Source: an uncultured Pelagibacteraceae bacterium (GTDB lineage Bacteria; Pseudomonadota; Alphaproteobacteria; Pelagibacterales; Pelagibacteraceae). From it: DNA of 40,699 nt. The stretch lies in assembly GCA_902592285.1 (NCBI GenBank), contig CACJED010000006.1, positions 1-40,699 of the forward strand, in the 5' to 3' direction. The notes under the pieces are model-generated. The model searched no databases and was not told the DNA's origin. It saw nothing but the letters and a program-made list of their open reading frames with translations. The position numbers and the translations under genes are program-made. Each line of letters opens with the position of its first letter. Position 1 is the stretch's first letter. This document shows positions 27,379-38,473 of the stretch, piece by piece.

Positions 27379-27963
27379 CTAACTAAAATTTTTTAAATAT
27401 TCTTTTATTTTTTTAATCGGCAGACCCATAATAGTATCGTTGTCTCCCACAATTTCGGAAAACAAAGTTTTTCCTAAACCTTCTATTTGATAAACATTAT
27501 AAGCAAATAATTTTTCGTCACTTAATTTTGAGAGATAATCTTCTAATTCTTCTAATTTAAAGTTTTTCATAACGAGTTGTGCTTTATCTGTATAATTCCA
27601 AATCATATTACCACCTTTTGATATACAAACAGAACTTATTAAGTAATGAGATTTTCCATTAAGTAATTTCAAAATTTCTAGTGCCTCATTTCTATTGGTT
27701 GGCTTTGAGATAATTTTACCCTCCAAATCAATTACACTATCTGCACCAATCACTAATTTATCAATAAATTTTGAGCTAACTTTATTTGCCTTTAATTCCG
27801 CTAAATTTTTAGAAATTATTTCTGGCGAAGCATTTATTTTAGATAATGATGTTTTAACACTATCTTCATCAATATTTGATGGAATAACATCACAATTAAT
27901 TTTATTTTGACTTAAAATTTCTTTTCTAACTTTACTTTGAGAAGCTAAAATAATTTTATTCAT
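27379..27963 (-). CDS. maf: Maf family nucleotide pyrophosphatase
   Basis: MNKIILASQSKVRKEIL, VIGADSVIDLEGKIISKP, YNVYQIEGLGKTLFSEIVGDNDTIMGLPI. Start trimmed to ATG 27963; overlaps the ppsR stop. Confidence 0.95.
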   Translation of the reverse strand: MNKIILASQSKVRKEILSQNKINCDVIPSNIDEDSVKTSLSKINASPEIISKNLAELKANKVSSKFIDKLVIGADSVIDLEGKIISKPTNRNEALEILKLLNGKSHYLISSVCISKGGNMIWNYTDKAQLVMKNFKLEELEDYLSKLSDEKLFAYNVYQIEGLGKTLFSEIVGDNDTIMGLPIKKIKEYLKNFS

Positions 27964-28783
27964 TTTTCTGACTGTAAATTTCAAAAATTTTAATAACTGA
28001 AGCAGCTGTTTCTTCAACTGATTTTCTTGTAACATCAATGCTTGGCCATCCATATTTTTTAAATGTTTTTTTTGCTGTATCAATTTCTTTTTTAATATTC
28101 TCAATATTTGTATATCTTTTATTGTCTGTTTCTTTTAAAGAGTTCATCCGGTTTTTTCTTATATCTACCAACCTTTCAGCTTCTGTATTTAAACCAATAA
28201 CACAAGCAATCTTAGGATTTTCTTGTAAAATTTTTGGTATTGAGTTTTCATCTATTAATGGAATATTCGAAGTTTTGTAACCTTTGTTTGCTAAATAAAT
28301 TGAAGTTGGTGTTTTGCTTGTTCTACTAACACCCAATAATACTATATCTGATTTTCCAGCTTCTTTTGCTAAATTACCATCATCATGATTCATCGTGAAC
28401 TGTATAGCTTCAATTCTTTGATAATATTCTTCATTTAAGACATGTTGTCCACTTGGTTCATGAGAAGCTTTTTGATTCAATAATTTAGAAAAACTTAAAA
28501 TTAAATTACCAAGTACTCCAAAACAAGGCAGGCCTTTGTCTTCACTCTGATTAGCTAAAAATTTTGCAAGACTATTATCTACAATAGTATAAAGGATAAT
28601 TGAATTTTCTGTTTTTCTTGCCATCTCTAAAATTTTAGAAATTTGATTTTCAGTTCTTGTAAAAGAATATGAATGTACCTTGTAATCAATATTTTTAAAT
28701 TGAGCTTTAAGTGCTAAAAAAATTCTATCTAAAGTTTCGCCTGTTGAGTCTGAAATAAGATATATTTGATAAGTATTACTCAT
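27956..28783 (-). CDS. ppsR: Pyruvate,phosphate dikinase regulatory protein (bifunctional kinase/phosphorylase, DUF299)
   Basis: YLISDSTGETLDRIFLALKAQF, SDIVLLGVSRTSKTPTSIYLANKGYKTSNIPLI, WPSIDVTRKSVEETAASVIKI. Confidence 0.95.
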   Translation of the reverse strand: MSNTYQIYLISDSTGETLDRIFLALKAQFKNIDYKVHSYSFTRTENQISKILEMARKTENSIILYTIVDNSLAKFLANQSEDKGLPCFGVLGNLILSFSKLLNQKASHEPSGQHVLNEEYYQRIEAIQFTMNHDDGNLAKEAGKSDIVLLGVSRTSKTPTSIYLANKGYKTSNIPLIDENSIPKILQENPKIACVIGLNTEAERLVDIRKNRMNSLKETDNKRYTNIENIKKEIDTAKKTFKKYGWPSIDVTRKSVEETAASVIKIFEIYSQKNE

Positions 28784-28867
28784 GTATAAAATGTTGATAA
28801 TTTTGTATTTTATTTAGAATATTTAATCCTCACAAATATATTAAAATTTTTTTGTAAATATCTTTAG

Positions 28868-28876
28868 TTATTCACA
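28868..28876 (+). promoter_or_regulatory. DnaA box TTATTCACA
   Basis: Exact match to TTATNCACA. Near-matches: TGTTGATAA at 28792-28800 and TGTGTAAAA at 28994-29002 (one mismatch each to TGTGNATAA). Confidence 0.6.
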
Positions 28877-29002
28877 ATATTAAACATGTTAATAAAATTA
28901 TACATATTTCTTAATAATTAATAATTGCCAGTATTATTATTAAATAACAATATTTTTACATATATAAGTAATTTATAATCAGTTTATAAGATGTGTGTAA
29001 AA

Positions 29003-29021
29003 GTTAATTATCGCAATTAAC
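29003..29021. promoter_or_regulatory. Inverted repeat GTTAATT-ATCGC-AATTAAC upstream of hemE -10 (TATAAT 29026-29031)
   Basis: Perfect 7-bp arms, 5-nt centre, ending 4 bp before a consensus TATAAT. Confidence 0.5.
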
Positions 29022-29059
29022 AGGATATAATACTATTACAAACATATATTATTAATTAT

Positions 29060-30064
29060 ATGACTCCTATTGAAAAAGTAATAAGGAAAAATGATACAAA
29101 CGTAAATCCAATATGGATTATGAGGCAAGCAGGTAGGTATTTACCTGAATTTAGAGAAATAAGATCTAAAAATAATGATTTTATTAAACTGTGTCTCAAT
29201 GAAAATTTATCTTCTGAAATAACATTACAGCCCCTAAAAAGATTTAATTTAGACGCTGCAATAATATTTTCTGATATTTTAATTTTACCTTATGGGTTAG
29301 GACAAAAAGTAAAATTTGAAAAAAATTTTGGGCCCAAATTAGATAAATTAAATTTAAATGAAATGGTTAAAGTTGATGAAATAGATTTTATCGAAAGAGT
29401 ACATCGTGTTTATAAAGCTATAAACAAAGTAAGTTCAAATATTATTTTAAAAGAAAAAAATACAATTGGTTTTGTTGGTGCTCCATGGACACTTTTGGTT
29501 TATATGATTAACCAACAATCACCAAAAAAAGAATTAAAAAAAGATTTTTTTAAAGATAATTTTTTAATAAATAGAATTTTACAAATTATAGAAAAATTTT
29601 TAAAAATTCATATTAAACATCAAATTGATAACGGTGCAAATATAATTCAAATTTTTGATAGTTGGGCTGGTCTATTAAACGAAAAAGATCTACCAAATTA
29701 TATATATACTCCTACTCTAAATCTTGTTAATTATGTTAAATCTTTAAATATACCTGTAGTATGTTTCCCTAGAGAAATAAAAAATTATAAAGAGTTCTGT
29801 GAAATTGTAAATCCAGATGTAATTAATATTGACTATAATGTAGACCCCAAAGAAATAGTTAAGAATATTAAAATACCGATCCAAGGGGGATTAGATCCTA
29901 AAATTTTATTGACAGATATAAATAATGTAAAGAAAGAAACTACAAGATATTTAGAAATTTTTAAAGATCATCCATATATATTTAATCTTGGACATGGCGT
30001 ATTGCCTGAAACTAATCCAGAGATGGTAAAAAATTTGGTTCAAACAGTTAAAGAATATAAATGA
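29060..30064 (+). CDS. hemE: Uroporphyrinogen decarboxylase
   Basis: NPIWIMRQAGRYLPEFREIR, AAIIFSDILILPYGLGQ, GFVGAPWTLLVYMI, FDSWAGLL, FNLGHGVLPETNPEMV. Confidence 0.98.
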   Translation: MTPIEKVIRKNDTNVNPIWIMRQAGRYLPEFREIRSKNNDFIKLCLNENLSSEITLQPLKRFNLDAAIIFSDILILPYGLGQKVKFEKNFGPKLDKLNLNEMVKVDEIDFIERVHRVYKAINKVSSNIILKEKNTIGFVGAPWTLLVYMINQQSPKKELKKDFFKDNFLINRILQIIEKFLKIHIKHQIDNGANIIQIFDSWAGLLNEKDLPNYIYTPTLNLVNYVKSLNIPVVCFPREIKNYKEFCEIVNPDVINIDYNVDPKEIVKNIKIPIQGGLDPKILLTDINNVKKETTRYLEIFKDHPYIFNLGHGVLPETNPEMVKNLVQTVKEYK

Positions 30065-32883: not shown

Positions 32884-34467
32884 ATGAATTTAGTAGATAA
32901 AATTAAAGTTCTAAATAACTATTTACAGACAAAAAATTTCAATAAAGTTATAGAAGGTGGAAAAAAAATTTTAAAAAAAATTCCAAACAACGACTACCTT
33001 TTAAACTTAATTGGGATGGCGTATCAAGGCAAATCTCAATACTTAAATTCAATTAGGTTTTTTGAAGAATCTTTAAAACAAAACCCAAACAACATTGCGG
33101 CAATGAATAATTGTGCTAACTCTTTTAAAGCTTTTGGTGCTTTTGAAAGAGCAAAAGAATTATACGAAAAAATTATTAATAAGGATCCAAATTATATAAG
33201 AGCCTACAATAATTTAGCAAATCTTAAAACATCTTATAACGATTATAATGGAGCAATTGAATTATATAAAAAGGCCATAGACTTATCAAAAAAAAATAAA
33301 CAAGTACCCACATCGACTACTTTAGATTTTATGTTTTCATTAGCTGTTGCGTATCAAGGCTTTAATAAAATTGAAAAATCAAAAGAAGTTATTGAGGAAA
33401 TATTATCCTTAGATTTCTCCCACGCTGGAGCACACAAGTTAAAAAGTTCGATGATAAAATATTCTAATGAAAACAAGGAGTCTATTGATCATTTAAAAAA
33501 GATGGAATTATTAAATGATAATGAGAAATTAACTGATAATAAAAAAATTGATTTATTTTTCTCTTTAGGAAAGGCTTATGAAGATATCAAAAGTTTTGAT
33601 AAATCTTTTTATTATTTGAATGCAGCCAACAAACTAAGACATGAAAAGTATGGATCAAATATAGACAATGAAAAAAAATTATTTGAGCACATAATTAAAA
33701 TTTTTGAAAAAATAAATTTAGAGGAAAACCACTCAGATATACCCTCAAAAAAGATAATTTTCATTTGTGGTATGCCTAGATCTGGCACAACATTAACAGA
33801 GCAAATTGTATCAGCTCATAATGATGTTTATGGTGCAGGTGAATTAGTTTATTTACAAAGAGTGATACAAAAGAATTTTTATCACGATTCTAAACTTGAT
33901 AAACAAAGAATTAAACAAATTAAAGATATCTCTAAAAATATAATATCTACTGAATATTTAGAACATTTTAATATATATAATATTAACCAAAATGTGATTA
34001 CTGATAAAGCTCCTCAAAATTTTAGATGGCTTGGCTTTGTTAAACTTTTTTTTCCAAATAGCAAAATACTACATTGTAGTAGAAATTCGAAAGATAATTG
34101 TTTATCTCTTTTTAAAAATAGCTTTGCATCAGCAATGATGAATTGGTCTAATAATCCGAGTGATATAGCAAAGTATTATAATATTTATGAGGAATTAATG
34201 AAATTTTGGAAAAGTAAAATTCCTGAATTTATTTTCGATGTTGAATATGAAAAGCTTGTAACTAACAAAAATGATGAAATTAAAAAGATACTAAAATTTT
34301 GTGACCTTACATGGGATGAAAAATGCTTGAATCATGAAAAAAATAGTAAGACACCAATTAAAACTGTTAGTGCTGCACAAGCAAGGAGACCTATTTATAG
34401 TAGTTCTTTAAATAGCAATATTAATTTTGATAAACACTTAGATGAAATGTTTAAGATATTGAAATAA
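32884..34467 (+). CDS. TPR-repeat sulfotransferase family protein
   Basis: N-terminal TPR repeats (IAAMNNCANSFKAFGAFERAKELYEKIINKDPNYIRAYNNLANLKTSY); C-terminal IIFICGMPRSGTTLTEQIVSAHNDVYGAGEL (PAPS 5'-phosphosulfate-binding loop) and ILHCSRNSKDNCLSLF. Confidence 0.92.
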   Translation: MNLVDKIKVLNNYLQTKNFNKVIEGGKKILKKIPNNDYLLNLIGMAYQGKSQYLNSIRFFEESLKQNPNNIAAMNNCANSFKAFGAFERAKELYEKIINKDPNYIRAYNNLANLKTSYNDYNGAIELYKKAIDLSKKNKQVPTSTTLDFMFSLAVAYQGFNKIEKSKEVIEEILSLDFSHAGAHKLKSSMIKYSNENKESIDHLKKMELLNDNEKLTDNKKIDLFFSLGKAYEDIKSFDKSFYYLNAANKLRHEKYGSNIDNEKKLFEHIIKIFEKINLEENHSDIPSKKIIFICGMPRSGTTLTEQIVSAHNDVYGAGELVYLQRVIQKNFYHDSKLDKQRIKQIKDISKNIISTEYLEHFNIYNINQNVITDKAPQNFRWLGFVKLFFPNSKILHCSRNSKDNCLSLFKNSFASAMMNWSNNPSDIAKYYNIYEELMKFWKSKIPEFIFDVEYEKLVTNKNDEIKKILKFCDLTWDEKCLNHEKNSKTPIKTVSAAQARRPIYSSSLNSNINFDKHLDEMFKILK

Positions 34468-37829: not shown

Positions 37830-38473
37830 TGGAACAAGAAATTTTAAATTCTTACTCAAGACTCAATGATTTGAATGTTTCACGTGAAACATTTTTAGAC
37901 TTCGAAAATTATATATCTATGATTTTAGAAAAAAATAAAAAAATTAATATAATTAGCCAAAAAACAGCATCAAAAAAGACTATAATTGATCGTCATATAA
38001 TAGATTCTGCACAAATTATTGATTTTGTTGATTTAAATAGCAATACAACTACAGATTTAGGCTCTGGTGGAGGTATGCCAGGTATCATTGTAGCTATTAT
38101 ACTTAAAAACATGAAAAATAATATGAATGTGCACCTTTATGAAAAAAGCTATCATAAAAGCCATTTTTTAAAAGAAGTTTCAGATAAATTAAATTTAAAT
38201 ACAAAAGTTTTTCAAAAAAATATTTTTGAAATTAAAAATTTAGAAACAGGAACGATTATGTCAAGAGCATTCAAACCAATGCCAGTAATCTTGGATTTAG
38301 TATATGGAAATTTTTCTAAATATAAAAATTTAATTTTTTTTATGGGCAAGAGTGGAAAAAAAGTTTTTGAAAATTCTAAAAAAAATTGGGAGCTTGAATA
38401 CGTAGAAAAAAAAAGTTTAACAAACAAAGATTCTTTCTTGATAAATATTAAAAAAATTAAAAAAAAAAATTAA
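37829..38473 (+). CDS. rsmG: 16S rRNA (guanine527-N7)-methyltransferase RsmG
   Basis: LNVSRETFLDFENY, KINIISQKT, TTDLGSGGGMPGIIVAI; position mnmG-rsmG-parA-parB. Confidence 0.97.
   Translation: MEQEILNSYSRLNDLNVSRETFLDFENYISMILEKNKKINIISQKTASKKTIIDRHIIDSAQIIDFVDLNSNTTTDLGSGGGMPGIIVAIILKNMKNNMNVHLYEKSYHKSHFLKEVSDKLNLNTKVFQKNIFEIKNLETGTIMSRAFKPMPVILDLVYGNFSKYKNLIFFMGKSGKKVFENSKKNWELEYVEKKSLTNKDSFLINIKKIKKKN
37876..37891. promoter_or_regulatory. parS centromere site TGTTTCACGTGAAACA
   Basis: Perfect 16-bp palindrome identical to consensus parS, inside rsmG (codes NVSRET), just upstream of parAB. Confidence 0.95.

Follow-up and report, generated by a model that had tools for sequence, protein, structure and literature searches.

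Origin candidate and its gene context

Does replication of a SAR11 chromosome start in the short divergent gap upstream of hemE? Few bacterial groups in the ocean are as abundant as SAR11. We analyzed a window of 40.7 kb, which is contig C6 of a MAG from SAR11 (Pelagibacterales); this MAG totals 882 kb over 49 contigs and has a completeness of 69.7%. A first-pass annotation, based on the letters of this window, had proposed its largest non-coding gap as a candidate oriC. We consider it very likely that this gap is the chromosomal oriC of the bacterium, and that it represents a streamlined counterpart of the Caulobacter origin, Cori. Our analysis covered the location of the gap, the clustering and conservation of its DnaA boxes, the periodicity of a DnaA-trio element, the proximity of parS, and the persistence of the architecture after boundary genes were replaced. 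The gap and its boundary genes are:

28784..29059, no strand: proposed oriC, the divergent ppsR-hemE intergenic gap; 276 bp, 14.9% GC
27956..28783, minus strand: ppsR (Kinase-PPPase, PF03618 = DUF299/COG1806), left boundary gene
29060..30064, plus strand: hemE (URO-D), right boundary gene

The gap had been described as highly AT-rich and directly upstream of hemE, and it is: its GC content compares with 28.1% in the whole window. Its resemblance to the Caulobacter context was also borne out, as ppsR and hemE are the boundary genes of the Cori of Caulobacter crescentus, which was mapped experimentally between hemE and CC0001 (COG1806-DUF299) (PMC1914354). The divergent gap was present in all SAR11 loci analyzed (111/111), with lengths from 261 to 285 bp. 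The same flanking by hemE and COG1806/DUF299 was found in 27 of 30 other alphaproteobacterial loci; their gaps span 378-730 bp, against which the SAR11 gaps are short.

To the right of hemE, the gene order in the window is hemH, a UPF0093 gene, rho, gidA, gidB, parA and parB. Between rho and trmE we observed an ORF of 527 aa (32884-34467); since its best match in G012, a complete congeneric genome, is far away (42.8-44.3 kb, 37% identity), it looks as if it was inserted into the operon in the lineage of the window. Gene directions had initially been taken as consistent with bidirectional replication. This description is right locally, but many rightward genes lie further left (at 1-17.5 kb and 21.6-25.3 kb), so that gene direction inside the window is weak evidence for an origin.

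A long conserved non-coding gap could also harbor a small RNA or a structured RNA. However, an Rfam search of the region gave no match up to E=1, a terminator scan revealed no terminator-like site, and conservation is concentrated in the 9-mer boxes and the trio element described below. We therefore regard an RNA as extremely improbable.

Position of the gap on a complete chromosome

Because the window's own MAG is fragmented, the genome test was performed in G012, a complete single-contig genome of 1,343,202 bp (1.34 Mb) from the same genus. No dnaA was detected in the window's MAG at its 69.7% completeness. The hemE-ppsR gap of G012 is located at 1,261,949-1,262,209. The cumulative GC skew of this genome has a minimum plateau at 1225-1300 kb, which contains the gap (at 1262 kb), and a maximum at 616 kb. 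Once gene strand is corrected for, the skew at third positions flips at 1270 kb, no more than 8 kb from the gap, and the fraction of genes on the leading strand peaks at 1235-1260 kb. The third-position AT skew was uninformative (best split at 1340 kb / 417 kb). The check by cumulative GC skew suggested in the first-pass annotation thus placed the gap inside the minimum, but with a wide bootstrap interval (-117 to +33 kb from the gap) that includes dnaA, at -63 kb. Skew alone, therefore, cannot pick the gap.

This leaves room for a different interpretation, in which replication starts at another point in the region of the skew minimum, for example beside dnaA, with the gap serving for DnaA titration or regulation. 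The dnaA gene, 63 kb off, is inside the intervals of both skew and gene orientation. However, the 598-bp intergenic region beside G012 dnaA contains no TTATymACA or TTWTNCACA box, whereas the gap is the sole site in the genome with 3 TTATymACA per 300 bp, and likewise with 2 TTATyCACA per 300 bp, forming the tightest DnaA-box cluster of the genome. The clustering of DnaA boxes discriminates the position of the origin better than skew. The strand-corrected switch near the gap, the single parS and the gene order conserved across the class also argue against an origin elsewhere, which we judge to be very unlikely.

The parS site of the window is:

37876..37891, no strand: perfect parS TGTTTCACGTGAAACA, at the start of gidB, near the gidA-gidB junction, upstream of parA-parB

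It lies 9 kb from the gap and is predicted from its sequence to be the ParB centromere near the origin. In G012, a search allowing up to 2 mismatches identified one parS only, with one mismatch, 7.3 kb from the gap. The change points of skew and gene orientation, the unique box cluster and this single parS some 7 kb off all support the initial reading of the gap as oriC. Near the terminus of G012 we found no convincing match to a dif consensus. SAR11 metagenome coverage is reported to show one origin and one terminus (PMC9589681).

An array of mostly weak DnaA boxes

We derived the anatomy of the boxes from aligned columns of 108 distinct SAR11 gaps (111 loci). The sequences are related, so counts across the 108 gaps do not amount to independent events. 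The boxes in the window are:

28792..28800, minus strand: DnaA box S1; TTATCAACA in the window, TTATTAACA in 56/108
28868..28876, plus strand: DnaA box S2; TTATTCACA in the window, TTATTAACA in 70/108
28887..28895, minus strand: weak DnaA box S3; TTATTAACA, poorly conserved beyond near relatives
28981..28989, minus strand: weak DnaA box S4; TTATAAACT in the window, ATATTCACA or TTATnAACA in relatives
28992..29000, minus strand: DnaA box S5; TTACACACA in the window, TTATAAACA or TTATTAACA in relatives, 11 bp from S4
29014..29022, plus strand: unwinding-proximal DnaA box S6; TTATTCACA in 78/108 relatives, decayed to CAATTAACA in the window

The conserved boxes are mostly of the weak forms TTATTAACA or TTATAAACA, constituting an array that is supplemented by one or two near-consensus boxes. 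S5 and S6 are 22 bp apart. S6 is the best conserved box among SAR11 gaps; in the sublineage of the window it has decayed, to TAATTCACA, TAATTAACA or CAATTAACA. S1 and S2 are nearer to the consensus in the window and in some close relatives.

Three of these positions touch on boxes reported previously. The S1 box, given as a one-mismatch box, is indeed one mismatch from TTATCCACA. The site at S2 is real, although it had been called a consensus box and its sequence is one mismatch from TTATCCACA. The third box, at 28994-29002 (minus strand), reads TTTTACACA and has two mismatches from TTATCCACA instead of one, yet it fits TTWTNCACA; S5, a conserved site that overlaps it, is the better reading. 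Conservation across the 108 gaps, which had been proposed as a check, was found for the S1 and S2 sites, with the S5 reading replacing the third. The weak boxes S3, S4 and S5, the decayed S6, the trio element and parS come in addition to what had been noted. The description of the origin as box-poor and minimal holds for its length, which is shorter than in the other alphaproteobacteria sampled, but not for its content, with about four to five conserved degenerate boxes and a trio-like element.

The gap is strongly enriched in boxes. In the whole 40.7-kb window, two of the three matches to TTWTNCACA and three of the four matches to TTATymACA fall inside these 276 bp. Across SAR11 gaps, TTATyCACA averages 0.89 copies per gap, compared with 0.014 in dinucleotide shuffles, and TTATnnACA 3.61, compared with 0.38. 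Domain IV of SAR11 DnaA has kept the DHTT recognition motif, and canonical boxes are therefore expected to be bound by it.

A putative DnaA-trio element next to hemE

DnaA-trios are repeats of 3'-GAT-5', i.e. 5'-CTA-3' on the complementary strand (PMC8287927, PMC8235120), along which the DnaA filament extends from the box in the 3' to 5' direction (PMC6669920). Two features at the hemE end of the gap are relevant here:

29027..29041, minus strand: putative DnaA-trios; top strand ATA ATA CTA TTA CAA = bottom 3'-TAT TAT GAT AAT-5'
29030..29059, no strand: candidate first-opened AT-rich segment adjoining hemE; on average the least stable duplex across the gaps of relatives

The period-3 element ATA-ATA-CTA-TTA (29027-29038) is located 20-33 bp before hemE, beside S6. 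Among SAR11 gaps it starts 4 nt after S6, and the A at every third base is conserved in 97-99%; the T preceding it is conserved in 92-94% in three of the four units and in 52% in the remaining one, with hardly any G in the element. At the exact offset after S6, 40 of the 108 gaps carry four strict NTA units in a row, while runs of four such units occur in less than 1% of 30-nt windows elsewhere in the gaps. About half of the relatives have just two consecutive strict NTA trios. The window, with ATA-ATA-CTA-TTA, has at least three consecutive trios with the conserved middle base (NTN on the top strand).

We also ran a strict scan for a basal unwinding system (BUS), defined by a DnaA box with up to 2 mismatches within 16 bp of trios and by at least 3 NTA trios. 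It was positive in 89 of 111 SAR11 gaps. The scan gave no match in the gap of the window, where the nearest box has 3 or more mismatches, and none in the other alphaproteobacterial gaps under the same settings (2 mismatches, 3 NTA trios). By eye, runs of CTAC-rich trinucleotides that lead into AT-rich DNA were seen near the hemE end of many of the latter gaps (L209-L238), suggesting that DnaA-trios may exist class-wide in alphaproteobacteria, a lead that the strict scan does not score.

The layout of box and trios in SAR11 matches the published direction of the filament. In the sister family, the same place is occupied by ATTCACAGG-TACAA-CTACTACTACTA-TTC-TATATATA and similar elements, with a box-GG-CTACTACTACTA-TATATATA pattern; CTACTACTACTA trios are present in loci L191 and L194. 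This textbook form in the sister family supports the trio reading in SAR11, and we find it probable that the period-3 element works as a DnaA-trios unwinding mechanism. The element resembles the BUS of Bacillus subtilis (DnaA-boxes 6/7 and DnaA-trios, incC) in its succession of a box, a short spacer, trinucleotides complementing 3'-GAT-5' and AT-rich DNA, a likeness that is clearest in the sister family and that concerns the succession of parts. Unlike the BUS, it is not beside dnaA (63 kb away in G012), the trios of the SAR11 genus are degenerate (ATA/CTA/TTA) with the GC-rich spacer mostly lost, and in the window the proximal box has decayed. The segment at 29030-29059 is the probable site of first opening; the stability minimum near hemE is a mean over 108 gaps, and the least stable 30-mer of the gap in the window itself starts at 28950.

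Persistence of the architecture after replacement of boundary genes

Divergent genes need promoters, and the gap could simply be the promoter region shared by ppsR and hemE, with its motifs being promoter or regulator sites and TATAAT at 29026-29031, 29 bp before hemE, being the hemE -10 element. Promoter-like matches are indeed present; however, their number (10 vs 7.3 in shuffles, sd 2.7) shows no clear excess, and a -10 element leaves the four period-3 TA units, the CTACTACTACTA form and the enrichment in DnaA boxes unexplained.

Natural swaps of the boundary genes bear on this directly. We did not find a match to ppsR (PF03618) in the ten sister-family genomes searched, which belong to the same order. 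In the sister-family loci (L191-L208) the origin gap lies between maf, as left neighbour, and hemE, and measures 271-281 bp, with a single exception that probably reflects a mis-called start. G143, a complete genome from another genus of the window's own family, carries hemE-hemH at a different chromosomal location, and its gap is found between ppsR and rho (L275 6330-6682; 353 bp, 17% GC). Its TTATAAACA boxes, at 6(-), 175(-) and 218(+), have the order and orientation of S1, S5 and S6. The architecture thus survives the loss of ppsR and the replacement of hemE by rho, which speaks against a promoter region and nothing more; we give this explanation very little credence. The short origin gap looks like a trait of the order, with the sister family similarly short and G143 in between.

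A model of initiation in SAR11

Taking the gap as oriC, we infer that DnaA binds it, that it contains the unwinding site and the place of helicase loading, and that control is exerted mainly by DnaA, with no CtrA or methylation sites at the origin. DnaA would bind the array of mostly weak boxes (S1, S2, S4 and S5, and S6 in relatives), and its filament would extend from the hemE-side boxes onto the bottom strand of the trios at 29027-29041. The adjacent AT-rich DNA at the start of hemE would then open, the helicase would load and replication would proceed bidirectionally, while ParAB would segregate the sister origins at parS, 9 kb away.

Our literature search found no prior description of the SAR11 box array and trio element, nor of a SAR11 origin at this level; DoriC location predictions may exist. 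With a base-level map of the origin, peak-to-trough growth estimates from metagenomes gain a fixed anchor, and replication timing in a bacterium with few regulators can be tested on a concrete target. The boundary-gene swaps across the order provide a clean comparative definition of a minimal origin.

CtrA, methylation and IHF sites

Within the known alphaproteobacterial oriC class, we place the SAR11 origin as a reduced member that is poor in CtrA sites. Caulobacter Cori shares with it the divergent boundary genes, the AT-rich gap and the DnaA boxes, but spans 404 bp and carries five sites each for DnaA and CtrA and a single IHF site (PMC1914354). In contrast, the SAR11 gaps, at 261-285 bp, have mostly weak boxes, CtrA sites that are not clearly enriched, depleted GANTC and no clear IHF site. 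The oriC of Rickettsia prowazekii (hemE / RP001) is alike in its boundary genes and very high AT content, the likeness covering these two features, and is longer than the SAR11 gaps (383-396 bp) (PMC1914354).

As the first-pass annotation had reported, the gap of the window contains no TTAA-N7-TTAA CtrA site; across SAR11 gaps there are 0.45 per gap vs 0.30 in shuffles. GANTC is depleted (0.019 vs 0.119 per gap) and the IHF motif WATCANNNNTTR occurs 0.23 vs 0.18 times per gap, with neither found in the gap of the window. None of the four OmpR-type regulators of G012 was recognised as a CtrA orthologue at the cut-off of the model, which was built for Rhodobacterales. CtrA sites are also missing from other predicted origins of the class, such as those of Ehrlichia ruminantium and one Wolbachia (PMC1914354), which points to these sites being a Caulobacter trait and not a class requirement.

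Tentatively, SAR11 origins may have dropped CtrA and methylation control to run on a weak-box array, with S6 decaying and the trios being kept in the sublineage of the window, where DnaA would be delivered to the trios from the distant S1, S2 and S5. This would be a working origin without a strong adjacent box; we hold the scenario to be possible but rather doubtful, and control of SAR11 replication by weak boxes is speculative. Most genomes searched yielded a GcrA, and all of them a CcrM-type methylase-family (PF01555) protein; both are kept in G012 and relatives, although no CtrA was recognised. Genome-wide, GANTC occurs in these genomes at about half of the expectation from base composition.
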